This document shows positions 1,143 through 18,600 of a stretch of DNA of 64,000 bases, piece by piece. The stretch is from NCBI RefSeq assembly GCF_900089495.1, contig NZ_LT605203.1:2712319-2776318 (forward strand), read 5' to 3'. The number at the start of each line of letters is the position of its first letter. The stretch's first letter is position 1. The translations under genes were made by a program, and so were the position numbers. The notes beneath the pieces are model-generated. The model searched no databases. It was not told the DNA's origin and worked only from the letters and a program-made list of their open reading frames with translations. This DNA is from Thiomonas sp. X19 (lineage in GTDB: Bacteria; Pseudomonadota; Gammaproteobacteria; Burkholderiales; Burkholderiaceae_C).

Positions 1143-2315
1143 ATGCAGCCCATCACCCGCTTTCTGCTTTTGCTGGTCGCGCTGCTATTGCCGAACCTTG
1201 CTAGCGGCCGCGGCAGCCTGCCCGACACCATGCAGCGCATGGCCGAAATCGTGCTGCCGGGCGCGGCGGGCCGCTTCGACTACATGGGGCTGGATGCGGC
1301 CAAGGACCGCCTATTCATCAACCAAATGGGCGCTGGACGCACCCTGGTGTTCGACCTGCGACAGCAGCGCCTGATCGGTCAGATTGTCGGCCTGGCTGCG
1401 CCCACCGGCATCACTCTCGCTCCGGGACTGCACCTGGCGTTCATCAGCGATCCCGGCGCTGGACTGGATCGGGTCTGGGGCGACGGCAGCGTAGTGGCGG
1501 TCAGCCTGCGCACCTTGGCAGTGGTGCAACGGTTTGCTGCGGGCGGCTTTCCCGACGGCAGCGCCTGGGTGCCGGCCTTGGGTCGATTGTTCGTTTCGAA
1601 TGAGCGCGGCGGCGTGGAAACCGTCATCGGCGGTGATGCGCCCCTGCGGGTGGAACAAACCCTCAAACTTGGCGGCGAGGCAGGCAACAGCGCGTTCGAC
1701 GCGGCCTCAAACCGGGTGCTGGTGAATGTGCAGTCCCGCGGCCAAATCGTCGCCATCGACCCCGAAACGATGGAGATTGAGGGCCGAGTCACCCTGCCCG
1801 CGACCTGCCAGCACAACCACGGCCTGCTGGTGGACGACGCTGACCATCTGGCCTTCGTCGCCTGCGATGGCAACGCCCGATTGTTGACCCTCAGCTTGCC
1901 CAGCCTGCGCCCGGTACAACTCAACCGCCTCGGCCGCGACCCCGACGTGCTGGCGCTTGATACGCGGCGTCAGCGTCTGTGGGTTGCCAGCGAAAGCGGG
2001 GTGGTGAGCGTGTTCAGCATCGCTGCCGGCAAGCTGCGGACGCTGTGGCGCGGTTTCGTTGGGCCTGATGCGCATAGCGTGGCCATCGACCCGACCACAG
2101 GCTGGGCCTGGTTCCCGCTGGCCGATGTGGACGGCAGGCCAGTGCTGCGCGCCATGCGGCTGACGCCGAACTGCACTGCGCCCCGACATGGCCCTTCTAC
2201 CTGCTCTCAAACTCCAGTCAAATGTAGTAGTGTCCGGTTAAATCTCGAACAGATTCAATTGGTTAGCGATCGAGACCAGTTCGGGTTGGGTGCGATCGGG
2301 CTGCAAGGCGCATGA
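1143..2315 (+). CDS. Periplasmic YncE-like beta-propeller protein, C-terminus altered by IS insertion
   Basis: The protein starts with a signal peptide (MQPITRFLLLLVALLLP...ASG) and continues as repeated blades of the type seen in YncE/SMP-30-like propellers (for example RLFVSNERGGV, ILVNVQSRGQ-like and RLWVASESGVVSVF segments). Such proteins are periplasmic and often sit with metal-related genes, but the substrate is unknown. The IS4-family element starts at 2225. Without it the frame would read AAA-TGA across the junction and end after 360 residues. With the IS the stop is lost and the frame runs about 30 codons into the element, giving 390 residues. The propeller itself is complete, so function may survive. 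The ATG at 1143 is preferred over an upstream TTG because it begins the signal peptide. Confidence 0.7.
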   Translation: MQPITRFLLLLVALLLPNLASGRGSLPDTMQRMAEIVLPGAAGRFDYMGLDAAKDRLFINQMGAGRTLVFDLRQQRLIGQIVGLAAPTGITLAPGLHLAFISDPGAGLDRVWGDGSVVAVSLRTLAVVQRFAAGGFPDGSAWVPALGRLFVSNERGGVETVIGGDAPLRVEQTLKLGGEAGNSAFDAASNRVLVNVQSRGQIVAIDPETMEIEGRVTLPATCQHNHGLLVDDADHLAFVACDGNARLLTLSLPSLRPVQLNRLGRDPDVLALDTRRQRLWVASESGVVSVFSIAAGKLRTLWRGFVGPDAHSVAIDPTTGWAWFPLADVDGRPVLRAMRLTPNCTAPRHGPSTCSQTPVKCSSVRLNLEQIQLVSDRDQFGLGAIGLQGA

Positions 2316-3549
2316 AAGCTGGGTTTTCTCGAAAACCGAGACCGACAGAATCTGTAGACATGTGTAGAGCGAGGCATCGAGGTGAAGCTCCTGTTTGATG
2401 ATGGCAATCAGCACGTAGGTGGCGATGGCACACCAGATTTGCGTTTTCACCGCGTTCTCGCTGGTGCCCAGAAAACGCTTGATCCGCAGATGCTGCTTGA
2501 TCCATTTGAAGAAGAGTTCGACCTGCCAGCGGCTCTTGTAGAGTGCGGCGATCGTCAAGGCTGGCAGGCTCGTGTTGTTCGTCAGGAAGATCAGCGTCCT
2601 GCCCGATTCGGGGTCTTTGAAACGAATGCGGCGCAGATGCTCGGGATAGTCCCGGCTGGCGTAAAAGCCGTTGAAGCGGATGCTCTGATCGCAGATCACC
2701 CCCGTGCTGCGGTCGGTGGCAGCCGAGTACACCCGCCGCGCGTCCATGCCCTTCTTGGCTCGCGTGATGAAGAAGGCGCCGGCCTGATGCAGTGCATACA
2801 GCCGCGCGAAATCCACGTAGCCCCGGTCCATCACGTAGAACGCTCCAGCCTCCACGGGCAGGACGTCGAGCACGTTGACATCGTGCAGTTTGCCGTCGCT
2901 GATGTGAATGAAGGCGGGAATCGCCCCACGCAAGTCCAAGAGCGTGTGCAGCTTGATGGCGGCCTTGGTGGAGCGAAATGGTGCCCAGTCGAACAAGCTC
3001 AGGCACAGATCGATGGTGGTGGAGTCCAGCGCGTAGACCGTGGCGTCGAGCCCCAGGTCCGAAGGCTCCTGCGCATACAGCGCCCGTGCCCGGGCGATCA
3101 ACCGCTGCGCCAGCGCGTGATAGATGCGCCAATCGCGCTGAGTCAACGCATCGGACAGCGTGGAGCGCGCAGGCACAGCTTTGATCCCCATGTGGAACAG
3201 CTTGGTCTGGTTGGCCGCCAGACACGCCTCGATGTCGCGCAGCGATTCGCGCCAGGTGAGTTGCGCGAACGCCAGGACGCGAAACACATCGGCGCACCCC
3301 AGCGTACGCACACCGGCATCGCCCTGGTGCCGCTCGATGATGCGACCAAACGTCTTCCATGGCACAAACTCCATCACCTGCGCAAACAGCGTCTTGCCGA
3401 TGTTCATGCATCACCTCGGGTCGTGCAAACCCGTCAGCATCGCAAATCGGCAAACCGAAATTCAAATCGTGGACACCCATGAATCGCTCAAAACCCGCGT
3501 CAACATTGGCTCGGCGGCTCGCTGACAGCCAATCAACCGGACACTACTG
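2225..3549 (-). mobile_element. IS4-family insertion sequence (complete)
   Basis: The element is 1325 bp long. Its ends are near-perfect inverted repeats, TAGTAGTGTCCGGTT on the left and CAGTAGTGTCCGGTT read inward from the right. It is flanked on both sides by AGTCAAATG (2216-2224 and 3550-3558), a 9-bp target duplication, so it arrived by transposition and has not rearranged since. It carries one transposase gene filling almost the whole element. Confidence 0.93.
2238..3407 (-). CDS. IS4-family transposase with DUF4372 N-terminal domain
   Basis: 389 residues. The N-terminus (about 1-75, with FAQVMEFVPWKTFGRII) is the DUF4372 domain common in one IS4 subgroup. The DDE core shows the first Asp in YALDSTTIDL, the second in VMDRGYVDF, and the third acidic residue inside the YREK signature, present as YKSRWQVELFFKWIK with exact Y-2-R-3-E-6-K spacing. 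The gene is full length and no frameshift is visible, so the element looks competent. The stop lies only 13 bases from the left terminal repeat. Confidence 0.95.
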   Translation of the reverse strand: MNIGKTLFAQVMEFVPWKTFGRIIERHQGDAGVRTLGCADVFRVLAFAQLTWRESLRDIEACLAANQTKLFHMGIKAVPARSTLSDALTQRDWRIYHALAQRLIARARALYAQEPSDLGLDATVYALDSTTIDLCLSLFDWAPFRSTKAAIKLHTLLDLRGAIPAFIHISDGKLHDVNVLDVLPVEAGAFYVMDRGYVDFARLYALHQAGAFFITRAKKGMDARRVYSAATDRSTGVICDQSIRFNGFYASRDYPEHLRRIRFKDPESGRTLIFLTNNTSLPALTIAALYKSRWQVELFFKWIKQHLRIKRFLGTSENAVKTQIWCAIATYVLIAIIKQELHLDASLYTCLQILSVSVFEKTQLSCALQPDRTQPELVSIANQLNLFEI

Positions 3550-3681
3550 AGTCAAATGAGTTGTTGATTCAACAGGCCCACTGAGCCCAGTATCCGATCG
3601 CATCGCGGCACACAATGCCGAGAGCATTTGATCGTCGGCGACAACAATTTTGCCCGCCTACCACGGCATACTCTTTATTTA

Positions 3682-3703
3682 TATAATAGGAATCGTTATC
3701 ATT
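3682..3703 (+). promoter_or_regulatory. -10 box overlapping a Fur-like operator
   Basis: A perfect TATAAT at 3682-3687 overlaps AATAGGAATCGTTATCATT (3685-3703). Read on the other strand this is AATGATAACGATTCCTATT, close to the Fur pattern of AATGATAA followed by an ATT-rich half. The site is 27 bases before the cupredoxin ATG and so would repress the iron-uptake operon when iron is plentiful. No convincing -35 hexamer is seen at the usual distance. Confidence 0.65.
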
Positions 3704-3729
3704 CGCTGAATTGCTGCGGAGTTCTTCCC

Positions 3730-4065
3730 ATGAGACATGTCCTATTTTTCACTGCACCGATGCTGCTGGCTCTGGCCGCCAGCACGGCGGTCGCCAGCGA
3801 TCTGCCGGAATACAAACTGGTCATCAAGAATCACATCTATCAACCCAGCGAACTCAAGGTGCTAGCCAGCGTCAAGTTCAAGCTCATCGTGCACAACGAG
3901 GACGCCACCCCGGAAGAGTTCGAGAGTACGGACTTGAATCGCGAGAAGATCGTGCTGCCGAACAGCAGTTCCCTCGTTTACCTCGGGCCGTTACGTGCCG
4001 GTCGCTACAAGTTTTTCGGTGACTTCCATCAAAACACGGCTCAAGGCCGGCTGATCGTGGAGTGA
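3730..4065 (+). CDS. Periplasmic cupredoxin-fold protein of an FTR1 iron-uptake operon
   Basis: 111 residues with a Sec signal peptide (1-23, cleavage near AVAS-DLPEY) followed by one cupredoxin-fold domain. The C-terminal loop reads FFGDFHQNTAQG. The position where type 1 copper proteins have cysteine (F-x-C-x-x-H) is glycine, so this is unlikely to be a blue-copper protein. It resembles the small cupredoxins (FtrB/EfeO-like) that hand iron to FTR1 permeases. A GCGGAG ribosome site precedes the chosen ATG. The stop is 4 bases before the permease start, so the two genes are one operon under the Fur-like box at 3685. Confidence 0.75.
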   Translation: MRHVLFFTAPMLLALAASTAVASDLPEYKLVIKNHIYQPSELKVLASVKFKLIVHNEDATPEEFESTDLNREKIVLPNSSSLVYLGPLRAGRYKFFGDFHQNTAQGRLIVE

Positions 4066-4069
4066 CGTG

Positions 4070-4933
4070 ATGCTTGGTGTTGCCTTGTTGGTATTTCGTG
4101 AAGTGATGGAGGCGGCGCTGATCGTCTCCATTGTCTGTGCCGCCACACGCGACGTTGCGCGTCGCGGATGGTTCGTGACCGCAGGCATTGGGCTAGGTGT
4201 AGCTGGCGCACTCCTGGTGGCCATGGGGGCTGACCTCATCGCTCGATTTGCCAGCGGTTCCGGCCAGGAAATCTTCAACGCCTGCGTGCTGCTGTCCGCC
4301 GTTGTGATGATCGGCTGGCACGTCGTATGGATGTCCAAACACGGTCGTGAGTCGGCCCAGCACATGGATGCGATCGGCAGTGCCGTCAGGGCGGGCTCCA
4401 GTTCGCTGACGCTGCTGCTGGCGGTGGTGGCGATCGCGGTTCTGCGCGAAGGCTCCGAGGTCGTGTTGTTCATTTATGGCATGGCCATCGGTGGAATCGG
4501 CGCGGCGGGGTTGACCGGCGGGATCGCGCTGGGTGTCGGCAGCGGTGCACTGCTCGGTTTCGCGCTGTATTTCGGTCTGCTGCGCATTCCGATGAAGCAT
4601 TTCTTCAAGGTCACCAACTGGATGTTGGTGTTGTTGGCGTCGGGACTGGCTTCCACTGCCGCGCGCTTCCTGGTCCAGGGCAATCTGCTGCCGTCCTGGG
4701 GGACTCAAGTGTGGGATACCTCCTGGTTGCTGTCGAACGGCTCGCTGGCAGGCCAGACGTTGGGCATCCTCATTGGTTACGACGCCAGCCCAGCAGGGAT
4801 TCAGCTTGTCTTCTACGCGACCACGTTGCTGCTGCTGGTCGTCAGCATGCGGCGGCTGGGCCGAGCATCGCCGTCACCCTCGCCACGCATACGCTCGCAG
4901 CTTCCGGACCCAACGACCGAGTCGCTGCGCTAG
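4070..4933 (+). CDS. FTR1-family high-affinity iron permease
   Basis: 287 residues with about seven hydrophobic segments. The two family-defining R-E-x-x-E iron-binding motifs are present: REVME at residues 10-14 in the first helix and REGSE at 126-130 in the fourth. The protein imports iron across the inner membrane, usually as Fe(III) after oxidation by periplasmic partners. It follows the cupredoxin gene by four bases. A GTG three bases upstream (4067) is an equally possible start. The 30-residue C-terminus is polar and serine/proline-rich, outside the family core. Confidence 0.88.
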   Translation: MLGVALLVFREVMEAALIVSIVCAATRDVARRGWFVTAGIGLGVAGALLVAMGADLIARFASGSGQEIFNACVLLSAVVMIGWHVVWMSKHGRESAQHMDAIGSAVRAGSSSLTLLLAVVAIAVLREGSEVVLFIYGMAIGGIGAAGLTGGIALGVGSGALLGFALYFGLLRIPMKHFFKVTNWMLVLLASGLASTAARFLVQGNLLPSWGTQVWDTSWLLSNGSLAGQTLGILIGYDASPAGIQLVFYATTLLLLVVSMRRLGRASPSPSPRIRSQLPDPTTESLR

Positions 4934-5024
4934 CTCGATCCCCCTTTGCTGCTCGCTCGTATCCGCGGCATGCTGCCGCCGGTCGGGAACGTGCGTCTTG
5001 AACCATCACCACAGGAGCCATCCC

Positions 5025-5798
5025 GTGTATCCATCGTTCCCTCGAAAACCTTCGGCCCTTCGTGTTCACGACGGCATCCAGCGTTCATGCGCCATCGGTC
5101 TGGGAGCGATCCTTCTGCTCGTCACCGCAGCGGCCCAAGCGGACGACTTTGTCGTCTACTCGCCGCACGTCCTCGCCACCCAGTCGGAGATCGAGCTACG
5201 CGGTTATGGGTATGGCGATCCACGTGCCGATTTCAACGGCGGCCAGGCTGCCGAACTCTCGGTTTCCCATGCGTTCACCGATTGGTGGAAACCGGAACTC
5301 TATCTCACGAGATATCAGCGGGAACCGGGAGGTGCCGGGCGACTGCTTGGCTACGAGTTCGAGAACACCTTTCAGTTGACGCAGCCGGGCGAGTCGTGGG
5401 CCGATTTCGGTTTTCTGGCCGCGTACGAACACCAGGTTGTCACCGGTAAGCCTGATGCCGTCGAGTTTGGGCCGCTGGTCGAAAAGACGATGGGGCGGTT
5501 CACCCACAGGTTGAATTTGATCTGGGAGAAACAGGTGGGCGCGGGCGCCAGTGGCACATACATGTTTCGTTACAGCTACTCGGGCACCTATGCGGTCTCC
5601 GCAGCCTTGCGTCCCGGCATTGAAGCTTATGGGCGGCCCGGTGATCGTGCGTATCAGGCAGGCCCAATTGTTGCCGGTGAATGGCATGTCCCGGGCACGA
5701 CCAGCAACCTCGAATACCGTTTCGGGGTGGTGCTCGGCATCAATGCGGCGGCACCTCGGCGGACGTGGCTGGCCCAGGTGGCGTACGAGTTCTTCTGA
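5025..5798 (+). CDS. Uncharacterised outer-membrane-like protein linked to FTR1
   Basis: 257 residues. A GTG start at 5025 is chosen because AGGAG lies 8 bases upstream and a long signal peptide (hydrophobic GLGAILLLVTAAAQA) begins there. The mature part alternates polar and hydrophobic residues with many aromatic residues and Gly turns (LYLTRYQREPG, YMFRYSYSG), and ends in AYEFF, the terminal phenylalanine of outer-membrane beta-barrels. It follows the permease by about 90 bases in the same direction. I do not recognise a characterised family. A role in moving or sensing the metal at the outer membrane is inferred from context. Confidence 0.6.
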   Translation: MYPSFPRKPSALRVHDGIQRSCAIGLGAILLLVTAAAQADDFVVYSPHVLATQSEIELRGYGYGDPRADFNGGQAAELSVSHAFTDWWKPELYLTRYQREPGGAGRLLGYEFENTFQLTQPGESWADFGFLAAYEHQVVTGKPDAVEFGPLVEKTMGRFTHRLNLIWEKQVGAGASGTYMFRYSYSGTYAVSAALRPGIEAYGRPGDRAYQAGPIVAGEWHVPGTTSNLEYRFGVVLGINAAAPRRTWLAQVAYEFF

Positions 5799-5927
5799 TC
5801 AATCGTGAACGCATCCCAAAGCCTATGACGTTTGCGAGGATGCTCCAGCCGCCGCGAGCAACCCTCAACAAAAATCCAGGAACCCAACGGTGTTTGGGAC
5901 TTGAGCCGCCGATGTCGTCTTGACAGG

Positions 5928-8900
5928 TCAGGACGTTGGAATCAGACGGCCCTGCCCACGGAGCAAAGCCGCAAATTCATCCGCAGGCACGGGCCGGCTG
6001 CAGAAATAGCCTTGGTAGGTGTCACAACCATGGGACCGCAGAAATTCCAACTGCTCTGCGGTTTCCACGCCCTCGGCCACAACACGCAACCCCAACTCCC
6101 TTGCCAGCAAGAGCACAGCCTTGGTGATGGCGATATCTTCAGCGTCATTCGGCAAATCTTTGATGAAGGCGCGATCGATTTTGAGGGCGGAGACTGGCAG
6201 GCGTTTCAGGTAGGCCAGTGACGAGTAGCCCGTCCCGAAGTCATCGATCGCCGTATCCACGCCCCTTGCCCTCAATTCGGCGATCAGTGCCGCAACCCGT
6301 TCGGGTTCGTGCATCAGGACACTCTCGGTGATTTCGAGTTCCAGCATGCGGGGATCCAGCGCGTGCGTGTCGAGGACGTTTTGGACGACGGCAAGCAGAT
6401 GATCGCTTTGCAATTGCGCCACGGCACAATTCACCGCAACGGGAACAATCGTGATTCCAGATCGCCGCCAATGCGCTTGCTGCGCGCACACGGTGTTAAG
6501 CATCCATGTGCCCACTGGAACGATCAGCCCGGTGTCCTCGAGAATCGGGATGAACTCGGCTGGCGCCACAAGGCCTTGCTTCGGGCGCTGCCACCGCAGT
6601 AGAGCCTCCGCACCGACGATCCGGCCAGTGGCGACGTCGACCTTCGGCTGGTAATAGGGTACGAATTCTGTCGCATCCAGCGCCTTGCGCAGGGCCCCCT
6701 CCATCTCGAACATCTGACGCTGGCGCGCATACAAACCTTGTTGATACAGACTCCATTGCCCGACTCCCTTCTTCTTGGATTCGTGCATCGCGATGTCTGC
6801 GCGGCTGAACAGCGCACTGACATCGTCGCCGTCGGCGGGGTAGCGAACGATGCCCATGCTGGCGCTGACGTGGATCTGTTGCGTCCCCAACAGCAGCGGG
6901 GCCTTGAGCGCTTGGCGCAATTGCTCCGCGCGCTCGGTGACGGCCTGCGTATTGAGCATGTGCTCCGAGACTATGGCGAACTCGTCGTCGCCGACATGCC
7001 CCAGCGTCTCGGTTCCACGCAGGCTTGAACGCAATCGCGCCGCTACTTGAACCAGAACCTGGTCTCCGACCGTATGCCCCAAGGTGTCGTTGATGGCCTT
7101 GAAACGGTTGATTTCGAGGAAGAACAACGCCATTTCTTCCCCGTTTCGGCGAGCCCTGGCCATCGCGTGTTCCGTGTACTCCAGGAGTTTGTTGCGGTTG
7201 GGCAGTTCGGTCAAAGGGTCGTGATAGGCCAGCCACTGCGCATGTGCGTGCGCGGTCCGGATTTCTGTCAGGTCGCACGACATGGCCACCGCCCCCAGGA
7301 AGGTCTGCTGCGCATCGTGCAAGGGGTAGCTGGAGATCTGGATCTGCCGTAACTCGCCTGTCCCGCTGTACGCCAGGAATTCAGCTCCAGCAACAACCTC
7401 ACCCCGAAAGGCTCGCGACAGTGGCCGCCCCGCGAACGGTACAGGGCGTCGATCCAGATGGAGCAGCGCGTGGTCGCGGGCCCACTCGTCAAGGTCCATC
7501 GGACGCGCGGCGTGTTCATGTTGGCAATCAATGAGTGCGTTTGTATATTGAATGTGGCCGTGCTCATCGCAAGCCACCACGCCGTCGGTCATGTTGTCCA
7601 GTACCGCTTGCAAGAAGGTATGGTCGCGGCGCAAGACATCGGCCTTGGCCAGGAGTTCACTGACGTCCTGCACGAACACAATGGCCATGTGAATGGCCCT
7701 GTGCTCGTCATGAATTGGGGCGACATGCAGGCGTACCCAGACATGGTCGCCGGACTTGCAGCGATAGCGGCGCTGCGCACAGTAGGCACCGCTTAAATCC
7801 GCAAAGATATCGGCCACACTCGAGGTGGCTTGCTTCAGATCCTCTGGATGAAGCAGGTCCAAGACACTGGGCAGTCGGCGCAACTCCTCCTCGGAGAAGC
7901 CCAGCATGTCGACCAAGGCGCCATTGGCTTCCTGGATGCGTCCGTCCCAACCAAAGGTCGCCATGCCCATGCCGGAATAGTCCAGACCGATGCGCACGCG
8001 CTGTTGGCTGTCATGCAGCCGGCGCACCATCGGACGCAGTTGCCAGCGCAGGAGTGCCAGCCCCACCAGCAACAAGGCAGGGAGCAGCAAGAGCACCACG
8101 CGGGAGGTCGTGATCAAGGAGCCAAACAATGCCCTTGCGGATATCTGACTGACCATGCCCAGTCCGGTGCTGGCCACCGGGGCGTAGGCCACGATCATCG
8201 CGTCCTCGTTCCCGTTTTGATGCCGGGTCGGGCGGATCACCACCCCGTGTTCGGCGTGCAAGGCCAGGAACTCGGGAGCGTCTGTTTGTCGTTGGGGCTC
8301 AGTCATAAACTGTGGATGCTCATTCGCATGGCCCGGCGAACACAAAGCTCCGCCCTGTTGCCGGGCGCAGACCACAACCGTATGCCCTGGATCCCTCTCA
8401 TGGAGCGCGAGTTCGGAAAAATAATCGGACTGCAAGGGCAATACCGCTTCAAGACTTCCCAAAACACGCCCGTCCTTGCGGATCGGCATGTGGACGCGAA
8501 GGATGAACTGCAAGCTATGCGGGTCGCGCAGCAGCCATGCCTGGCCCGGATACGGCCACTGCACGGGCAACCCGGCATCGCTTGCCGTGAAACGCCCCAT
8601 CTGATACACAATCTGCCCTTGGAGATTGCGCAGGACAAGCCATTCAGGGGCAATTTGCTGAGCGCGATCTTCCACGGCGTCCTCAAGCCCACTGTGTTGT
8701 GAGTCGATGCCCGACGAAGCATCCAGAAAGCTCAAGACGCGCTGATTTGCGGCTAACGCGGCGACGTCCTGACCGCGATTGCGTATCTCTCGGTTCAGTG
8801 TGAGCGCAAGCCGGTCATTGTCGTGTTGCAAACGTGTTCTCAGGACGTGCTGGGCGTGCCTTCCCATGAGGGTTGTCGCCAGCAATCCAGCGCCCCCCCC

Positions 8901-9177
8901 CTGCAAACACCAGCGCCAGTCCTGCTGCGACCAGGATTTTGCGATCCATGCGTTCCCGCAGAAGCCGGCGCAGCCAAGCGAATCTGCTGAAGAGCGCCAT
9001 CACGATGCCTGCGAAGACAAGGAATACAACCGGATGTGGCAGGAGTTCCTGAGTACGAATGAGGCCGACTTGGTACTCGGGAAGTCTGAGCAGCGCCACT
9101 GGCACCGCAAGTGCAGCGATGAGCAAAATACTGATATCGAGATACCTGTCGAGGTTGATGTTCAACTTGCCTTGCAT
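5928..9177 (-). CDS. Membrane GGDEF/EAL c-di-GMP protein split by a poly-G frameshift
   Basis: Two frames together make one protein. The first (from ATG 9177) gives about 95 residues with two or three membrane helices (ILLIAALAVPVALL, VVFLVFAGIVMALF, ILVAAGLALVFAGGG) and stops at 8815. The second continues from the tract of nine G at 8893-8901 to 5928. With eight G the frames join as VFAGGG-AGLLATT, giving about 1082 residues: membrane domain, extracytoplasmic sensor, another helix (VVLLLLPALLLVGLALL), two PAS domains, GGDEF, EAL. The GGDEF domain is degenerate (GDDEF, with FLEINRFK for the metal site), while the EAL domain keeps EALLRW, VNC, ITES, IDDFG, LKIDR and AEGVET. This suggests a c-di-GMP phosphodiesterase. 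The start overlaps the upstream cyclase gene by 16 bases. Confidence 0.8.
8893..8901 (-). repeat. Nine-G homopolymer inside the GGDEF/EAL gene
   Basis: Nine consecutive C on the plus strand (G on the coding strand) mark the exact point where the reading frame breaks. Eight or eleven would restore a full-length protein; nine or ten would not. Such a tract is typical of slipped-strand phase variation but also of sequencing error. Confidence 0.85.
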
Positions 9178-11873
9178 GTCGTGTCGTTCTCAAGGTGGGG
9201 CGAGTCATGCGCCGGGCCGTCATGGGCAGCGGTCGATATGGTCGTCGGACGAGGCGTCCGGCTCCAGAGCTGCCAGCCGCGTTGGCGTGAACCTTTGCGC
9301 GCCTTGACGTCATAAAGCGCCTCATCGGCATGGCCGAGCAAGATGTCGGGCGTGGCGTCATCCGAAGGGTAAACCGTCAGCCCCAGGCTGATCCGCATGG
9401 GGGTCGATTGTCCCCCGGGCAACGTGTACGGCGCCGTCAGCTCGGCTTCCAGACGGTCCAGCACCGTCGAAAGGTCATCGGGACCCGAGAGTTCTTCAAG
9501 GACAACGACGAATTCATCGCCACCGAGCCTTGCGATCGCATCGGCACCCCGTAGCGTGGTCTGCAGGCGCCGACTCACGTCGCACAGCAGCGCATCACCG
9601 GCGGCATGGCCCCAGGTGTCATTGATGGACTTGAAATCGTCCAGATCCAAAATGCCGATGGCGACTTGCCTGCGGCGGTTTTGCGCCCGGGCAAGGGCTT
9701 GAGGAATGTGTTCCAGGATGGACCGGCGGTTGGGCAGCCCCGTCAGAGCGTCCGTCAAGGCCAACGTTTCAATACGCTGACGGTCGCGCACCTGGCGTAG
9801 CGCAATGGCCGCACTCTCCAGGATGTTGGTGACCAGATGCTGGAGCTCCTCGTCGATGGCGTGCGGATCTCGGGCCACCAGAATGACCACACCCATCGGC
9901 TCTCCAGAGTCAACCGCCAAGATGGGCCAGCCCGCGAGCAGGCCCATGGCACACAAGGGCTGCTCACGCCAGCGTGGCGACAACTTGGGATCGGCCGACG
10001 GGGTCTGAATGAGAACGGGAGCGCGCGCGTTCCAGACACGCGCGCGCATGTAAGCACCTTCTCCCCTGGCGAGCGCTTGCAGTGGCACGTCCGTCAGATG
10101 GCTTAGCGCCTGCTCAAGGGGCCCGGCAATGACGCGGCGCTTGATCATGTCCCCTTCGGGAGCGAAGACCTCGACGACGTCGGCTCCCGTTTCAGCGACC
10201 AGCGTTTGCGCCAGAACCCTGTACACGCCCGCGGCGTCGGTGGCTTCCAGCAGTCCGCGCTGGATCTTGCGCCGCGCCGAGCGGTAACGCTCGATGCGTT
10301 CCAACTTGACGATATTGGCTTGCCGGTCGATGCATTCGGCAAAGGCGTCGGCCATGCGCTGGAAGACTTGGGCCGCCTCCGGGCCGATGACGCTTTCGCT
10401 GGCGTAATACGCGCAGACGAGAACGGCCTCTCCGTCCTGAGTCCGTGCTGCGGCCGACAGAACGCCTGCAATCCCGAAAGCTTGTGCGCGCCGTCGCCAG
10501 GGGGCGAACTCCGGAGCCTCGATCGTGGCATGTTGGGGCTTTCCTGTCGTGATGGCCTGGCTGGCAGGGCCCCGGCCTTCCGGACGATGGCTGTCGGTGC
10601 TGATCCGCAAGTTTTGGGCAAAGTTGCTGGCGGGGCCCGCGCAGGCGGTCATGTCGACCCAAATCTGGCCCAGAGGCAGTCGTCCCACGCAGACGAGGCG
10701 TGCTTGCAGCAAGGCGCAAAGGCTGGTCGCCAGATCTTCGAATGTGGCCGACACATCACCGGCCTTGTGCCCCATCAGTGCCTGAGTCGTCTGGGCCAGG
10801 GCGGCATAGAACAGCGATGATTGGCGTGCCGTGCGCTCTGCCTGTTCCAGACGCAAGGTGCGTTGACGCTCCAGCCGCTGGAGCTTGTTCAGGCGCAAGG
10901 CCATCAGTGCGAAGAGCACACCCAGCAGCGTCCATTCCAGCAGGGGCAGACGCACCTGCTGCCACCAGGCATCCCGGACCGTCGCCCGCGGAACGGACAC
11001 GAAGGTCTCGAGGGGTGCCCCCTTCAGCGGGACAAGGACACTCCAGGCCATGCGGTCCGTGCCAGAGTCATCCACATGGATCGGGCCGACGACATGCTCG
11101 GGCGTCGCCACCAGCGGATGCCTCGGGGATGGAGGCAAGGCATGGAGGCGAAACCAGGATGCGAGGCGTGCGGCGTAGATCGTCGGACCGGTGGGCTCGG
11201 GCCACAGTCCCAGGAGATCGCCCTGTCGGGTGACCAGGCCCATCTGCAGGTGTCGCGCCATATCCGCAGCCAGTTCCGGACGCAACCAGCTCGTGATCTG
11301 TCGGTGTAGATCGATGTCGGCGACGAGGTCGTACGCGATGGCGCCGCTTGCACTGCGCTGCGCGAATCCCAAGCGGACGACCGCCAAGCCAGCGGCCGAG
11401 GCGGCGGCTTTGGGAAAGGCCGTGTGCACGTCCGGGCGTTGGCGCAGCTTGTGTAAATAGGCTTGGGTGACGGGCTGGACTGCGCGCAGATCTTGCTTGG
11501 ATGCATCTGCGACGACCCGGCCGTCCGGCAGGATGACGTCGATGGCGTCGAAATCCGGATACATCCTGCGAAATTGCCGCAACAAGGCGAAAATCGCCTG
11601 GGGGTCGGCGTGCTCAAGAGCCGGAGCATCTGCCTTGAGGTGATGATTCAGGAAATCAAATCCGCGCAAATATTGTTGCAGGTTCTGCTGGGTGACGGAT
11701 TTGGCCAGCGCCGAGGTGGCGTCGAGTTGCAGCCACGCCTGGTCCGCAACCGCACGCCAGCTCTGAAAACCGTACCCAAGGGCGGCGGTTAACCAGACGA
11801 TGAACCCCATGGACACGACAGACCAGAATGCGCTGCGGCTTTGGTTGGGAGTCCTTTGACTGATGTCGTCCAT
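9162..11873 (-). CDS. Membrane sensor diguanylate cyclase (GAF-GAF-GGDEF)
   Basis: 903 residues from the ATG at 11873. One helix (about 16-36), a 270-residue extracytoplasmic sensor of Cache type, a second helix (about 309-329), a short coiled linker, two GAF-like domains (about 350-515 and 530-695), then GGDEF (about 700-865). The catalytic motif is intact (RLGGDEF at 782-788), as are DLDDFKSIND and the inhibitory RxxD site (RGAD, 775-778), so it should make c-di-GMP and be product-inhibited. It overlaps the following GGDEF/EAL gene by 16 bases, pairing a cyclase with a probable phosphodiesterase. The frame is open for 58 more codons upstream; these lack a hydrophobic or domain signature and are left out. 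No good ribosome site marks the start. Confidence 0.85.
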   Translation of the reverse strand: MDDISQRTPNQSRSAFWSVVSMGFIVWLTAALGYGFQSWRAVADQAWLQLDATSALAKSVTQQNLQQYLRGFDFLNHHLKADAPALEHADPQAIFALLRQFRRMYPDFDAIDVILPDGRVVADASKQDLRAVQPVTQAYLHKLRQRPDVHTAFPKAAASAAGLAVVRLGFAQRSASGAIAYDLVADIDLHRQITSWLRPELAADMARHLQMGLVTRQGDLLGLWPEPTGPTIYAARLASWFRLHALPPSPRHPLVATPEHVVGPIHVDDSGTDRMAWSVLVPLKGAPLETFVSVPRATVRDAWWQQVRLPLLEWTLLGVLFALMALRLNKLQRLERQRTLRLEQAERTARQSSLFYAALAQTTQALMGHKAGDVSATFEDLATSLCALLQARLVCVGRLPLGQIWVDMTACAGPASNFAQNLRISTDSHRPEGRGPASQAITTGKPQHATIEAPEFAPWRRRAQAFGIAGVLSAAARTQDGEAVLVCAYYASESVIGPEAAQVFQRMADAFAECIDRQANIVKLERIERYRSARRKIQRGLLEATDAAGVYRVLAQTLVAETGADVVEVFAPEGDMIKRRVIAGPLEQALSHLTDVPLQALARGEGAYMRARVWNARAPVLIQTPSADPKLSPRWREQPLCAMGLLAGWPILAVDSGEPMGVVILVARDPHAIDEELQHLVTNILESAAIALRQVRDRQRIETLALTDALTGLPNRRSILEHIPQALARAQNRRRQVAIGILDLDDFKSINDTWGHAAGDALLCDVSRRLQTTLRGADAIARLGGDEFVVVLEELSGPDDLSTVLDRLEAELTAPYTLPGGQSTPMRISLGLTVYPSDDATPDILLGHADEALYDVKARKGSRQRGWQLWSRTPRPTTISTAAHDGPAHDSPHLENDTTCKAS

Positions 11874-12497
11874 GAGGAGAATCGGCGGGTGAGCATGAGC
11901 CTGACTTGCCCTGATCTCCGGATGGGAAAGTTGGGCGACATCGAGCAATGCGCCTGCATTCTCGAGTGGTTGCAATCTAGGGTGAAAGCCCCTCGGCAAG
12001 CAAGGGAGCGAGAGGAAGAAATCGCCAGACATCGTGAACAAATTCACGATTTGGCCGAATCAGCCACGACGCAGTTGCATGCGTCGGCCTGAAGCTCGCC
12101 CAGACGATTGAACACGACTGCGGGTAACTGGACGGCCACTTGCGCCGGGCGGCTCCACTCCAGACGGCCCGCGGCAAAAGCGATCCAACTCGCACCTCTA
12201 ACGCGACAGCGGCGAGCGCTTGAACTGGGCAAATTGCGCGATCAGTTTGGCGAGATCAGCCTGCGCCGCCGACAGGAACAGGGTGGCTGAAGCAGCGGCG
12301 CGCAATCCAAGACGAATACTGCTCGCGTCGCAACGCCACGACGTGAGAACCCGCTTGTATGTGAACTTTCTCACAGAACCGCGCAGTTCTTTCCCCCTCA
12401 TCTTGCCGTCGCGGGGACTGCGCTTTACAAAGAGAACCCCGCCCCCTTACTCCAGAGACCCGACACATTCCGACCATGCGCCGGATGGTCACACTCC
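11874..12497. other. Divergent intergenic region, no confident gene
   Basis: Six hundred bases separate the minus-strand cyclase gene from the plus-strand operon at 12498. On the minus strand, short frames at 12198-12401 (a signal-peptide-like stretch ending SAAQADLAKLIAQF) and 12044-12232 (SWIAFAAGRLEWSRP) look like two pieces of one decayed small secreted protein, but the join is not clean. Promoters for both divergent operons should lie here; I could not place them. Confidence 0.4.
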
Positions 12498-12863
12498 ATG
12501 GACCGCACTCCTCTCCTGCCATCCTCCGTCCTTGCCCAGATCGATGCCCTGCTGATCGATCCCCGAGGCAGCTTTGCGCCACGGCCCATCGCGTTGTGCC
12601 GTGCACCTGACTTCGACACAACGCAGGTCGTCACCCTCGTCACCGTCCACGAAGATGGCTCCCTGGTCGTCGTCCTTGCCGAGCCCCTCGCATTGGAGGA
12701 GACCTGCTGGGTCGAGAAGTCCACGCACAGTGATCACGCCCAGGCCGGCCCGTATCTGGTGAGCGAGGTGCACGTGGGCAACCGGCCCGAGGATACGCAC
12801 GCGCTCTGCTGGATTCACGTGCTGCGCCAAGACCCATGGGCCGACACCGTCGCCCTCACCTGA
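12498..12863 (+). CDS. Unknown 121-residue protein, paralogue of the one at 13802
   Basis: I do not recognise a family. The protein is soluble, without signal peptide or membrane helix. Its motif LLIDPRGSFAPRPIALCR aligns with LRIDARATFKPRPARLRL of the protein encoded at 13802, and both end in a similar hydrophobic strand (ALCWIHVLR and VVLLWLRAVR), so the two are related. It is the first gene of a tightly packed operon that leads to an FHA protein and a GGDEF-EAL receptor, which suggests a role in the same signalling pathway. That role is inference. Confidence 0.6.
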   Translation: MDRTPLLPSSVLAQIDALLIDPRGSFAPRPIALCRAPDFDTTQVVTLVTVHEDGSLVVVLAEPLALEETCWVEKSTHSDHAQAGPYLVSEVHVGNRPEDTHALCWIHVLRQDPWADTVALT

Positions 12864-12878
12864 ACCGTCGGTTCCACG

Positions 12879-13805
12879 ATGTTCGGACGCCACTCGGCGA
12901 ATCACACAGTCGCATCCCGCATTGCCCTGCACGCGCAAATCACGGGTGGCGACACCATGTTCAGGGCGCTGGGTGAATCGCGCGCCCAGGCTCTCCTGCA
13001 GCGCACCGCGCAACGTCTGGGGCACGGCCTTGCAGCCTCCGGAGGTCTGGTCATCGGCGCGCGCCCAAGCGACCTTGTCGCCTTGTTCGAACACGCGGAT
13101 CAAGCCGTCCAGGCTGCGTGCGGTCTGCGGCGCGCCCTGCAGGAATGGCTGCAGCCTGTCCAGCAGGACATGGCCCTGGATCTCGACGTCGGCCTGAGCG
13201 CCGGGCTCGTGCTGTGCCATCCTCCGGTCTACGAGGGCCAGACGCTGCAGCATGCCGCCGCCCTGGCCAACGCAGCAAGCGAAGGCCAGATTCTGCTCGA
13301 CCAAACCGTGCGCGCTCAGCTCTGTGCTGCCCTGCAAAACCGCCTGCACCCTTTACGGTTCGATGACGGCGGCCAAATCTGGGGCCTGGTGTGCCCGCAA
13401 GCCATGCCCCCACCCACGGCCGTGCCGACCCTCACCCTCGTCGATCGCCAATCCGGCCTGCCGCACGCCCATGCCAGTGGTCAAGCCATCCTGCTCGGTC
13501 GCGCCCCCGACAGCACCATCGTCGTCGACCACCAGACTGCTTCGCGCCGCCATGCCGTGATTGCCTGGAAAGGCTATGGCTACATCCTCACCGACATGAG
13601 CCGCCATGGCACCTGGATCGCTTACGGCGATGGCCACACCGCCATGTGCGTACGCCAGAACATCGCGTTACTGCAGGGAGAGGGCACACTGTATCTCGGT
13701 CGCTCCTCCCGGCCACCAGGCCGCGGAGACGTCACGTTCCGGATCGAGCCACCCTGCGTCTGCCTGGCATCCGAGGCGCCTGACGCGGCGGCACTCCAGC
13801 CATGA
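12879..13805 (+). CDS. Class III cyclase-homology plus FHA domain protein
   Basis: 308 residues in two domains. Residues about 10-165 follow a class III nucleotidyl cyclase fold (LHAQITGGDT, LGHGLAASGGLVIGARPSDLVALF, LDVGLSAGLV), but the two metal-binding aspartates of active cyclases are not where expected, so it is probably inactive. Residues about 195-275 form an FHA domain with the GRAPDS, SRRHAVI and HGTWI motifs; FHA domains bind phosphothreonine. The two domains are separated by a proline-rich linker. Its stop overlaps the next start (ATGA), so it is translationally coupled to the small gene at 13802. It may read a phosphorylated partner in the c-di-GMP circuit. Confidence 0.78.
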   Translation: MFGRHSANHTVASRIALHAQITGGDTMFRALGESRAQALLQRTAQRLGHGLAASGGLVIGARPSDLVALFEHADQAVQAACGLRRALQEWLQPVQQDMALDLDVGLSAGLVLCHPPVYEGQTLQHAAALANAASEGQILLDQTVRAQLCAALQNRLHPLRFDDGGQIWGLVCPQAMPPPTAVPTLTLVDRQSGLPHAHASGQAILLGRAPDSTIVVDHQTASRRHAVIAWKGYGYILTDMSRHGTWIAYGDGHTAMCVRQNIALLQGEGTLYLGRSSRPPGRGDVTFRIEPPCVCLASEAPDAAALQP

Positions 13806-14191
13806 CCATCGGCAGCAAACTCATCGACGTCGACTGGAACGATCCCAGGCTGCAGGAACTGCTGCGCAAGACCGAGGGGTTGCGCATCGATGCGCGTGCA
13901 ACGTTCAAACCACGACCGGCGCGCTTGCGCCTGTCGTGGCGCGAAGGCGCGGCTTGGTTCGACGTCTGGCGGGTGCATCAGACGGGTGATTTCCATGTGA
14001 TCCGGCTCGATCGGCGCCTGGACATGCGTGTTGGCGACGCAGTCAGCCTGGACACGCTGCGACCGACTGCGCCCACTGCGGGCATCGTGTTCACCCAGAT
14101 CGACGCCATGCGCGCTGGGGAGCGCAACGAAGATCAGAGAACGCCGGTTGTCCTGTTGTGGCTGCGTGCCGTACGTGGTGGGATGCGATGA
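13802..14191 (+). CDS. Unknown 129-residue protein, paralogue of the one at 12498
   Basis: No recognised family. It shares the IDARATFKPRP motif and the hydrophobic C-terminal strand with the protein at 12498. It is basic and soluble, with no signal peptide. It is coupled on both sides by ATGA overlaps: its start lies in the stop of the FHA gene and its stop in the start of the GGDEF-EAL receptor at 14188. This stoichiometric coupling argues for a physical partner of one of those proteins. A PilZ-like small domain is possible but the RxxxR and D/NxSxxG motifs are not visible. Confidence 0.6.
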   Translation: MTIGSKLIDVDWNDPRLQELLRKTEGLRIDARATFKPRPARLRLSWREGAAWFDVWRVHQTGDFHVIRLDRRLDMRVGDAVSLDTLRPTAPTAGIVFTQIDAMRAGERNEDQRTPVVLLWLRAVRGGMR

Positions 14192-17100
14192 ATCCCGTGC
14201 TGCGCAAACACCTGCTGCGTGGCCTACTCTGGCTTCCAGTCCTGCTCGTGCTGGTTTGGTTTGTGAACCAGGAGCGCATGGACGATCAGAACGTCCGCAC
14301 ACAGGTCGCCAATCAAGCCCGGCACATAGCCATGGCCGAAGGCCAACTGATCCAACTGCGCTTGATGCAGCAGTTTCTGCAACTGGGCTTCGTCGCCAAG
14401 GCCATCGTGGGCGGACAAGACCCCGAGACTCTCGACACGCGGACCCAAGCCCTGCTCGATCGATTCGCCGCGCAGCACCCGGAACTGTTCGCGCTCAACA
14501 TCCAGTCCGCTGATGGCCGGCGCATCCTGTGGTCCAGCCACCCCCAGCCGGCCACACCGATGTTCGGAACTCGGGATTTCACGTCGCTTCCCGGCCGGCC
14601 TGATGACCTCCTTGGGAAGAGCCGTTATGCACCCCGTTACGGCGGTTTGATCCAGTCGATGCGCTACCGTATGCGCGACGCCCAGGGGCGTACCTTGTAC
14701 TTTGTCGGCTCGCCGTACCGTGTCGACGCGCTCCTGGCCTCGACGGTTGCTGACGACTGGCCGCTGACGGTGCGCGATCTGCGCGACGACAGCGTGCTGG
14801 GCGCCTTGTCGCACGGCCAGGTCGTGCACCCGACTTCGATGACCGAAGGCGGTGTTGAAGAACCCATCAGCGGCTTGCCGCTGGCCGTTGCGGTGAGTTG
14901 GCCGAGCGCCCAAGTCTGGCAACTCTACCGCCACGGTCTGGCATGGCGGCTTGCCGCTCGGGTTGTCGTCCTTGCCTTTTTCATCCTGGCTGCCTTGGTC
15001 GTCGATCGCTTACTGCGCAGCCGACAAAAGCTTCTGCAACGAAACGCCAGGCTGGCACGCTTCAACGCCATGCTGGCGCATGTGAATCAGGCGATCGTGC
15101 AGACGCGCGACGTGCAAACCCTGCTGGAGACGGTTTGCCGCCTGGCCGTGCACGACCTGGCCATTGCGCTGGCCTGCATCGGTCGCCCCGGCGACGACGG
15201 GCGCTTCGTCTATTTGGCCAAAGCCGGCCCGGCGGCGAGTTATGTCGATGGCCTCGTGATCAGCGCCGATGGATCCATCCCCGAAGGCGGGGGAAGCGCC
15301 GCAATGGTCTGGCGTGAGGACCGCGCGATATTCACCATGGACACCCAGGGCTCTGCGGTCTTGCGCCCATGGCGCGAAAGACTGCAGCGCTTCGGGCTCA
15401 ACGCCTCGGCCGGCCTGCCCCTGCACCGAAGTGGCAAGGTTTGGGCCGTGTTGAACATTTACTGCGGAGATTCGACGAGATTCACCCCGGATCTGCAACG
15501 TACCCTGCTAGATCTGGCCGACGATCTGTCCCATGAACTGGACCGTCTGGATCTTTTATGCAGTCAGGCCTTGCTGCAACGTCAACACGCCAGCCTGCTG
15601 AGCAACACCGTAGCCGGTGTGGTCATGGTGCGCTACCCCGGCGCCACCATCGTCGAGGCGAACGCCGCCATTGCGCGCGTCTTTGGCATTCGCGACGTCA
15701 GCGATGTGTTGGGCCGCAGCGTGGGCGATGCTGCTCCCTCCTTGATCCAGGACGGCATGGTCAAGGCCACGCGTGTGGCCCTCAAAGACGGCCAAGTCGA
15801 AGTGGACGCACTGGATATCGTCCGTGCCGATGGCCAGCCAGCCTGCATCGCCATCTCAGGAAGACGAATCGACACGGATCCAGATGGGTTTACTTTTGTC
15901 GTGTGGACCGCAGTCGATGTCACCGAGCGCCAGCGCCTGATGCAACAAATGGAGCATCTCAGCAAGGCTGATCCGCTGACTGGCCTGCCGAACCGGCGCG
16001 CACTGGAACAATCCCTCGAACGTGCGATCGTGCGTGCCGGGCGTCTGGGCGCAGCAGTGGCCGTCGGCCTGATCGATCTGGATGACTTCAAGCCAGTCAA
16101 CGACCGCTATGGGCACAGTGTCGGCGATAGGCTGCTCAAGCAGCTCGGCGAACGTCTGCATCAACTCATGCGCGGTTCGGACATGATGGCCCGGCTCGGT
16201 GGTGACGAGTTTGTGGTCGTCATCGAAGATCTCGATGTCGAGCATGCCCAGACCCAGCTCGCCGCGATTCTGGGGCGCCTGCATCAGGCCGTGCAAACAC
16301 CCTTCGACCTTGGGGACGGACGTACCGCTAGCGTGGGCATGAGCATGGGTGTCGCGCTGACGTCTGCCGACGGCAGCAGCGCCGATACCCTGCTGCGCTT
16401 GGCCGATGGAGCGATGTACCGGATCAAAGCTCGCAAAGCCACACGCACCCAGTGGTGGACCCTGGTGGGAGTCGATCCTGGGGACGACATTCCCGAGCCC
16501 CCCTTCGACCCCTTTGGCTCGGACGCGCAGACTCTTCTGAGTCGCATCGGACGGCTGTTGGACGTCGTCGAGCGCGAGTTCGTGGAACCCTTTTACAGCG
16601 AGCTCGCGCAGCGCAGCGACACGGCGGCCATCCTCGCCGCGCTGAGCGTCGCGAGGATGGCTCGCTTAAAGGCGAGCCAGGCGGCGCACTTGCGCTTCTT
16701 GCTCAACCCGGCGACGACCGCGGCACAGATCCAGGCCCGCGCCCAACATCTGGGCCGCCTGCACGCCCTGGTGGGGGTGGCGCCGTCGTGGCTGAGCGCG
16801 TCGATGCAACTCTATCGAGATCTGCTGCACTGGCATCTGGATGCGGGCGAACAGGCCGCACGTGAGCGCTATCGCCTGCAACGCGTGTTCGACACCCGCA
16901 TCCAGATCGATCTGCAATGCCAGCTCGATGCCATGCTGCTTGTGCAAAACGCCTACAACGCTTATCTGGCTCGGGTTTTGCCACGGCTTAGCCAAGCGCG
17001 GGTCGAGGTGATCGATGCCAAGTTGCAGGCCCTCGGGGCTTTGCCCGGCATTCGGTGCTGTGCGCTGCTGCGGCCCGACGCGCAGGGGCTGTTCATCGTG

Positions 17101-18600
17101 CAGGCCAGCAGCGGTGAACTGGCGGCGGACGTGGCACAAACCCTGTCGACCCCAGGATTGCAGCCCTCGCTGGATTCCAACAGTGCCACCGGCAAGGGCA
17201 TGACCGCGCAGGCCTGGCGTACAGAGTCGATCATGACAGCTAAAAGCTATGAGGGTTGTGTGGGGCTGGCTCCCTGGGAGGGGATCGCCGCACACTTTGG
17301 TATCCGCAGCATGGCAGCGATCCCACTGATGCGCACCGGGCAGGCCGATTCGGTTCTGGCACTCTACGGCGCTTACCCCAATCAGTTCGACACGCAGCAA
17401 GGACAAACCTTTCTGACTGCGGCGCAAAACCGCTGGAATCTGGTCGACGATTTACTGCGTCAACGCCACCCCGTGGTTGATCAGCAGGATGCCGCGTTGT
17501 ACCGCCAGTGGCTGTACGCCGACGGTCTGCACATGTTCGTGCAACCAGTAGTGGATCTGCGCGATGGACGGCTGAGCAAGGTCGAGGCGCTGGCGCGACT
17601 GGTCTCCCCTGAAGGCAGCGTCGTCGCGCCGGGGCTGTTCCTGCCAGCGCTGCGAGAAGCCGATCTGGACGCATTGTTCCGCATGGGCCTGTCTCAAAGC
17701 CTGCACTGGCTGGCGCAATGGCGCGACCACGGCATGAAACTCGACGTCTCGCTGAATCTGCCGCCATCGACGCTCCTGCACCCGGATTGTGCCCAATGGA
17801 TTCGGGAGGCGCTGCGCGAGCACGGCATCGCGCCGCATCATCTCGTGCTGGAGTTGCTGGAGTCGCAGGAGGTCGATGAGGCGCTGCGCGACAGGGCCAT
17901 CGCCACGCTGGGACGACTGGGTGTGCGCCTGGCGATCGATGACCTGGGATCGGGATTCAGCAGTCTCAAGCGCCTGGCCAGCCTGCCCTTCGATGTGATC
18001 AAGATCGATCAGGGAATCATCGAGGACATCGACCGCGACCCGATCAAAGCGCTGAGTCTGGTGCGCACCGTGGTGCAGATCGGGCGGGATTTCGAGAAAG
18101 AGGTTGTTGTCGAGGGGGTGGAGAATGCAGCGATCATCGAAGCGGTCACGATTCTGGGCGCAACGTTCGGGCAGGGCTATGGCATCGCGCGGCCGATGCC
18201 TGCCAAGCAGTTGCAGGACTGGGCAGCGCAGTACGCCTTGAACCGGCAAGCTCCCGGCGACGGGTTATCACCTACGCGCATCACGACCGCTCTTGGCGCT
18301 TTGGCGTATCACTGGCTCGACACACATGACGGCCAGCCGCATCAGGTGCGGGCAATCGAGGCTTGTCCGCTCACAGCGTTTCTGCAGGCGTGCGGCGCAG
18401 GAGCGGAAGATGCGAGGACTTGGCACGCCACCGTGCACACGGCCTCGGACGCGGACGTGCGCAAGGCTACGAGCAAGAAACTCACGGCGTGGCTCGCCGA
18501 GTTGGTACGTGCTCAAGGCAGCGCTTTCCACGCTTTCCAAGGACCATCCAATCAGCCCAGTATCAAGGGTTCCACCGAAGCAGCGGATATGCCCGGATAA
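14188..18600 (+). CDS. Receptor with GAF, PAS, GGDEF, globin-sensor, GAF and EAL domains
   Basis: 1470 residues. Helices at about 8-27 and 255-275 enclose a periplasmic sensor. The cytoplasmic part reads GAF (305-455), PAS (470-585), GGDEF (590-755), a helical globin-like domain (780-890), GAF (930-1090), EAL (1105-1345) and a 115-residue tail. The GGDEF is intact (671-675) with an RGSD inhibitory site (662-665). The EAL keeps KVEALARL, LNLP, ELLES, IDDLGSG, IKIDQ and VEGVEN. The globin-like segment has PFYSEL and LGRLHALVGV, matching the distal Tyr and proximal His positions of globin-coupled sensors such as E. coli DosC. It may therefore switch c-di-GMP synthesis or breakdown on oxygen. The start overlaps the preceding stop as ATGA. 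Confidence 0.85.
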   Translation: MNPVLRKHLLRGLLWLPVLLVLVWFVNQERMDDQNVRTQVANQARHIAMAEGQLIQLRLMQQFLQLGFVAKAIVGGQDPETLDTRTQALLDRFAAQHPELFALNIQSADGRRILWSSHPQPATPMFGTRDFTSLPGRPDDLLGKSRYAPRYGGLIQSMRYRMRDAQGRTLYFVGSPYRVDALLASTVADDWPLTVRDLRDDSVLGALSHGQVVHPTSMTEGGVEEPISGLPLAVAVSWPSAQVWQLYRHGLAWRLAARVVVLAFFILAALVVDRLLRSRQKLLQRNARLARFNAMLAHVNQAIVQTRDVQTLLETVCRLAVHDLAIALACIGRPGDDGRFVYLAKAGPAASYVDGLVISADGSIPEGGGSAAMVWREDRAIFTMDTQGSAVLRPWRERLQRFGLNASAGLPLHRSGKVWAVLNIYCGDSTRFTPDLQRTLLDLADDLSHELDRLDLLCSQALLQRQHASLLSNTVAGVVMVRYPGATIVEANAAIARVFGIRDVSDVLGRSVGDAAPSLIQDGMVKATRVALKDGQVEVDALDIVRADGQPACIAISGRRIDTDPDGFTFVVWTAVDVTERQRLMQQMEHLSKADPLTGLPNRRALEQSLERAIVRAGRLGAAVAVGLIDLDDFKPVNDRYGHSVGDRLLKQLGERLHQLMRGSDMMARLGGDEFVVVIEDLDVEHAQTQLAAILGRLHQAVQTPFDLGDGRTASVGMSMGVALTSADGSSADTLLRLADGAMYRIKARKATRTQWWTLVGVDPGDDIPEPPFDPFGSDAQTLLSRIGRLLDVVEREFVEPFYSELAQRSDTAAILAALSVARMARLKASQAAHLRFLLNPATTAAQIQARAQHLGRLHALVGVAPSWLSASMQLYRDLLHWHLDAGEQAARERYRLQRVFDTRIQIDLQCQLDAMLLVQNAYNAYLARVLPRLSQARVEVIDAKLQALGALPGIRCCALLRPDAQGLFIVQASSGELAADVAQTLSTPGLQPSLDSNSATGKGMTAQAWRTESIMTAKSYEGCVGLAPWEGIAAHFGIRSMAAIPLMRTGQADSVLALYGAYPNQFDTQQGQTFLTAAQNRWNLVDDLLRQRHPVVDQQDAALYRQWLYADGLHMFVQPVVDLRDGRLSKVEALARLVSPEGSVVAPGLFLPALREADLDALFRMGLSQSLHWLAQWRDHGMKLDVSLNLPPSTLLHPDCAQWIREALREHGIAPHHLVLELLESQEVDEALRDRAIATLGRLGVRLAIDDLGSGFSSLKRLASLPFDVIKIDQGIIEDIDRDPIKALSLVRTVVQIGRDFEKEVVVEGVENAAIIEAVTILGATFGQGYGIARPMPAKQLQDWAAQYALNRQAPGDGLSPTRITTALGALAYHWLDTHDGQPHQVRAIEACPLTAFLQACGAGAEDARTWHATVHTASDADVRKATSKKLTAWLAELVRAQGSAFHAFQGPSNQPSIKGSTEAADMPG

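Follow-up and report, generated by a model that had tools for sequence, protein, structure and literature searches.

The window, a 64,000-nt stretch of the Thiomonas sp. X19 genome, contains two genes for putative cyclic-di-GMP (c-di-GMP) enzymes that run in the same direction on the minus strand (Table 1). The upstream gene encodes a GAF-GGDEF protein and overlaps the ATG of the second gene, a predicted phosphodiesterase gene, by 16 bases (9162 and 9177). The second gene is divided between two open frames. One starts at the ATG at 9177 on the minus strand; the other ends at 5928 and comprises the end of a third membrane segment, a putative periplasmic sensor region, a fourth membrane segment and PAS, GGDEF and EAL domains. 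The frames meet at a homopolymer of exactly nine C on the plus strand, that is, nine G on the gene strand, and differ on its two sides, so that the length of the tract sets the frame from within the coding sequence. As assembled, the product of the normal start ends 25 codons past the tract and lacks the sensor and catalytic domains. The exact letters and open-reading-frame coordinates thus bear out what the sequence-only reading had described, namely a nine-G tract, two frames joined at it and a 16-base overlap with the cyclase gene.

Table 1 Features of the window and related sites elsewhere in the genome
Feature	Position	Strand	Remarks
Upstream GAF-GGDEF gene, intact GGDEF motif	9162..12047	-	Same direction as the phosphodiesterase gene
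N-terminal open frame, 120 aa, no Pfam match	8815..9177	-	Crosses the tract in the other frame; stop at 8815
Nine-G tract, site of frame change	8893..8901	-	Falls in codons for the third predicted membrane segment
Body open frame, 992 aa	5928..8906	-	Mechanical start TTG 8906
PAS domain	7653..7982	-	Best PAS_4 stretch at residues 309-418 of the body frame
GGDEF domain, degenerate signature	6765..7229	-	Pfam and alignment
EAL domain	5991..6695	-	Pfam and alignment
Second GGDEF-EAL gene, EAL end in three copies	G000:C3 ~2,565,870; 2,589,590; 2,591,590 (L157, L158)		Frame change inside EAL at seven C
Third GGDEF-EAL gene	G000:C3 ~14,750 (L166)		Frame change at six G, coinciding exactly with the GGDEF signature
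Sites of a single N between exact or near-exact duplicates	G000:C3:2,590,934; 2,605,244; 3,028,199; 2,357,072; 3,333,483

Comparison with relatives shows where the frame is lost. The nearest relatives by DNA identity are Thiomonas delicata DSM 16361 (L033, 90%), a Burkholderiales MAG (L034, the same contig as G001:C31; 88%) and G026 (L006, 73%). A four-way DNA alignment shows each of the three full-length orthologs to be one base shorter at the aligned segment, with other bases interrupting the run, which confirms that the frame break at the nine-G run is genuine in the assembly. The residues at this place are GVGS in two relatives and GGGA, encoded without a homopolymer, in L006. The T. delicata ortholog has 1082 residues without a stop, the length that had been proposed for the restored protein, and the proposed sensor-GGDEF-EAL architecture is found by Pfam as sensor-PAS-GGDEF-EAL, intact in the relatives. 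Elsewhere in the gene, L034 alone has gaps relative to the window: a three-base gap and a single-base gap, the latter about 24 bases from the end. For a fourth relative, G014, the C-terminal part of the gene is all that is present, at a contig end, so this genome is uninformative on the tract. A DNA search with the N-terminal part matched four of the 28 genus genomes, our own included; T. delicata also has an open paralogue at 59% identity, and more distant relatives were listed as well.

Synteny with T. delicata takes in the two-gene cassette; with G001 it is longer, covering 3592-18506 of the window. The G001 synteny starts just beyond a 389-aa open reading frame (2238-3407) that overlaps the end of an opposite-strand open reading frame (1128-2315) and that by eye resembles an IS4-type transposase.

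Hydropathy segments of the T. delicata ortholog lie at residues 12-30, 45-63, 81-99 and 358-376, which places the tract within the third, just ahead of the putative periplasmic region. The first 330 residues of this ortholog were also modelled with AlphaFold, but the model had a mean pLDDT of 40 and was set aside. The EAL domain of the window protein is full length (Pfam EAL, E 4.8e-75, profile 3-236 of 236), and the usual catalytic motifs of this domain can be seen by eye on a four-protein alignment. The GGDEF signature reads GDDEF in the window, L033 and L034 and GSEEF in L006; neither the window protein nor any of the three orthologs has the intact signature by which an active diguanylate cyclase is recognized. 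Because the signature is degenerate in all four proteins and the EAL motifs are kept, the window protein is predicted to be a phosphodiesterase. The solved sequences closest to its body are the GGDEF-EAL tandems 4rnh (E 9.9e-109) and 5m3c (E 2.8e-109), which match the GGDEF-EAL part only, and from which the window protein differs in its degenerate GGDEF signature. The entry 4rnh carries the name Motility regulator and is presumably MorA.

Over 987 codons the body has a dN/dS of 0.25 when compared with T. delicata and 0.24 when compared with L034; the upstream cyclase, over 800 codons, gives 0.26 and 0.20, respectively. Constraint is weaker over the 92 codons ahead of the tract, where the pairs all give values of 0.40 to 0.46. 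On the window branch, unique codon changes number 32 amino-acid and 51 silent in the body and 22 and 36 in the cyclase, against 45 and 56, and 42 and 48, on the T. delicata branch. These codon-change and dN/dS counts exclude the tract bases, which carry two amino-acid differences from T. delicata. An excess of amino-acid change on the window branch of the body, relative to the T. delicata branch, was not found, nor was a second lesion or relaxed selection anywhere in the 987 codons. By these codon comparisons the body is under purifying selection without a sign of decay, in line with the earlier statement that all but the homopolymer is intact, and the break should therefore be recent, reversible or an error that lies outside the cells.

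Two explanations that accept the ninth G as real sit uneasily with parts of this evidence. The gene may have been lost for good, as a young pseudogene broken at its most mutable site. Redundancy would make such a loss cheap, as the genome has 37 GGDEF and 33 EAL domain rows and other EAL genes are truncated or split, and the number of long G runs, considered below, is within chance expectation; but 987 codons lacking a further lesion or any relaxation of selection make fixed loss an unlikely account. Alternatively, RNA polymerase slippage or ribosomal frameshifting on the G run could bypass the break and yield some full-length protein. Purifying selection on the body would fit such a bypass, and long runs can provoke slippage during transcription. 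Bacterial transcriptional slippage is, however, best known on A/T runs, and a conserved slippery site is lacking, as the run is absent from each of the three full-length orthologs; we consider bypass very improbable.

The absence of a homopolymer at the tract position in T. delicata, L034 and L006, all three full-length orthologs, leaves the idea of a conserved switch at this tract without support; a tract shared by orthologs is usual for genes that vary by homopolymer slippage, though it does not strictly define them. L006 does have a nine-G run of its own in the same gene (L006:4280-4288), in frame and about 175 bases further in. With 17 distinct runs of at least nine in G026 (counted from the listing), the chance of one falling in a gene of this size is about 1%; noticed after the fact, the second run may be regarded as suggestive. 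A ten-base G run also lies at L006:1359-1368, about 130 bases past the 3′ end of the gene.

How unusual is a run of this length? The nine-G tract is the only G/C run of at least seven in the window, for which Markov models trained on its own sequence expect 0.57 (order 1), 0.13 (order 2) and 0.07 (order 3) runs of at least nine per 64 kb. The whole genome has 37 distinct G/C runs of at least eight, nine of them of at least nine (counted from the listing); scaled to 4.67 Mb, the order 2 and 3 models expect about 10 and about 5. Enrichment of long G runs was accordingly rejected as to number, although individual runs of 15 and 22 exceed the lengths expected by chance. Across the genus, 27 of the 28 genomes have at least one run of nine. 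The other eight runs of at least nine lie, by eye, mostly between genes or in repeat-like DNA, and mechanical open reading frames of at least 60 aa cover all eight. The longest, 22 G at G000:C3:3,901,115-3,901,136 (L088), sits beside an N and, like the 15 C at G000:C3:3,525,948-3,525,962 (L087), appears by eye to be between genes. At G000:C3:906,230-906,238 (L081), a nine-base G/C run directly precedes GGAG and the ATG of a possible minus-strand gene, where a spacer-length effect on translation is possible.

The main competitor is a sequencing or assembly error, under which the cells would have a frame-keeping tract and an intact gene, like the relatives. We take the assembly for a scaffolded draft not finished to base level; literature searches gave no sequencing method that could be assigned to this genome. 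It has 15 N positions in the 664,881 bases examined, of which 14 are single N, and the flanks are duplicated on both sides at five of the 15 sites with 99.6-100% identity: exactly over 2003 bases, over 1261 bases and, at two sites that sit in identical stretches, over 374 bases, and over 919 bases at 99.6%. These five sites are probably contig ends joined without merging. Such visible join artefacts make an error at a nine-base run a serious rival, and because of them the homopolymer-error alternative, which the sequence-only reading had itself named, stays open. The run of 22 G adjoining an N points the same way, as does the lack of relaxed selection on the gene. MutS is present and free of internal stops, and the genome thus bears no mark of a mutator.

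Surveys of frame-split genes and of runs in coding DNA bear on this rival from both sides. When the relatives' open reading frames from T. delicata and G001 were compared with our genome, 28 of 332 were at least 80% covered by its own DNA and five of the 28 were split between frames; two of these five rows are the window gene, which leaves three of 26 other compared reading frames split. In the reverse direction, one of 28 own reading frames was split in a relative. A separate frame-shift survey against T. delicata (237 open reading frames in 360 kb) failed because synteny was lacking, giving a full match of at least 80% for the two cassette genes only. Against a general error at homopolymers, 32 of the 36 classified G/C runs of six to eight in clearly coding context keep the frame, about the same proportion as among runs of five (173 of 190). 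These figures come from 664,881 bases of own DNA, a sample biased by the many stretches chosen for the runs they contain. There is therefore no general excess of breaks at longer runs, within a test that left a further 117 runs of six to eight aside as unclear or strand-changing and classed all nine runs of at least nine, the window tract among them, as unclear. The sensitivity of the coding-frame model used for these shares is low: it reported the seven-C gene in Table 1 and missed both the window tract and the six-G gene.

The seven-C and six-G genes can themselves be read in two ways. Six of the 33 EAL rows are three copies of a single domain, frame-split at the run of seven C, and two of the 37 GGDEF rows belong to one domain that a run of six G divides at the signature itself. 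Two more c-di-GMP genes changing frame at homopolymers are what miscalls would produce; yet none of the 91 ABC-transporter domain rows, inspected by eye, is frame-split. This comparison of domain rows excludes the window gene, whose break is outside the domains. Some of the EAL copies may be assembly duplicates around a single N, and the copy number in the cells may be lower, because the join with the exact 2003-base duplication lies among them. It would fit equally that c-di-GMP genes can bear or exploit such breaks and that homopolymer errors are scattered through the assembly; the numbers are too small to choose. Another EAL domain lies in two pieces about 1.6 kb apart (G000:C3:3,859,889-3,862,190, L159), perhaps split by an insertion. 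Taken together, we regard an error as a real, if lesser, possibility; error and simple recent loss combined come close in likelihood to a real slipped tract.

Our favoured reading, to which we assign about an even chance, is that the nine-G run in the sequenced clone has slipped by one base and put the gene out of frame. The tract itself, the frame break in the assembly, the intact orthologs, the lack of other lesions and purifying selection argue for it, as do the share of runs of six to eight that keep the frame and the slippage seen in evolved Rhodospirillum rubrum (below), and the homopolymer's absence from the three full-length orthologs, the presence of MutS, the duplicated N flanks and the five of 28 split reading frames argue against it. 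In this scheme the run, lying in glycine codons of the third membrane segment of the second gene of a cyclase/phosphodiesterase pair, would have changed by one base, so that translation begun at the normal start would halt 25 codons past the tract, and the sensor-GGDEF-EAL body would not be made from that start. The upstream cyclase would stay on, deprived of its co-encoded phosphodiesterase. A reverse slip of one base would put the gene back in frame at an appreciable rate, although, with MutS present, the rate may be modest; since the same slippage restores the frame, the gene would behave at least passively like an on/off locus. We infer that the extra base would be present in cells, that the gene would switch, that its product would be an active phosphodiesterase and that c-di-GMP would rise in the off state.

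The slipped-strand phase variation that had been proposed is thus partly supported, by the tract structure and the intact orthologs, and weakened by the tract's absence from those orthologs and by a run count at chance; a phase-variation switch is plausible but unproven. The boldest form of the idea, a selected poly-G slipped-strand switch in an environmental Thiomonas that randomly uncouples a membrane c-di-GMP phosphodiesterase from its cyclase, as one of several run-dependent c-di-GMP genes and as a bet between attached and motile life, seems unlikely. Slippage control of a phosphodiesterase in a free-living, mine-drainage genus would, if real, offer a case of a redundant c-di-GMP enzyme made into a random switch by one G run, and heterogeneity in Thiomonas biofilms could be tested with one amplicon. 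In Thiomonas CB2, arsenite lowered the expression of diguanylate cyclase genes and has been linked to biofilm regulation (PMC5481541), and a change of state could therefore matter in this genus. If the ninth G is an error, the case counsels caution in calling switches from draft assemblies.

Set against simple sequence repeat contingency genes, the window gene is alike in having a homopolymer near the 5′ end of the coding sequence at which a one-base change moves the frame; it differs in that its tract is not conserved in orthologs, its target is a signalling enzyme and it is known here from one assembly. Homopolymer contingency tracts are presented as general in PMC2831843, with statistics for poly-A and poly-T. 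In laboratory-evolved Rhodospirillum rubrum, single bases were added to or dropped from G(C) runs of 7-9, once with the restoration of a frame-shifted gene (PMC10927898); the lengths of these runs are similar to that of the window tract, but the setting was experimental and the genes were others, and the change reported there in a diguanylate cyclase/phosphodiesterase was a substitution. In evolved Pseudomonas aeruginosa, PMC8115180 links homopolymer indels with c-di-GMP enzymes, and the tract indels under selection that it describes were intergenic.

Phase-variable c-di-GMP enzymes had been called little described. That holds in part: a direct precedent for slippage of a poly-G or other homopolymer in a GGDEF/EAL gene was not found in a limited search of open-access literature, but phase-variable phosphodiesterases as such are known from Clostridioides difficile and Escherichia coli (PMC11868660). 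The C. difficile enzymes PdcB and PdcC vary through site-specific inversion of upstream DNA (PMC9286219 and PMC11868660). They resemble the window gene in that a c-di-GMP phosphodiesterase would be expressed reversibly in some cells and not in others, and differ in that the candidate switch of the window gene is a homopolymer inside the coding sequence rather than an inversion upstream. The phosphodiesterase of the E. coli sfa fimbrial operon is likewise phase variable, through epigenetic control of the operon (PMC11868660) and not through slippage. Poly-G slippage in Thiomonas, if real, would be another route to this known kind of phase-variable phosphodiesterase.
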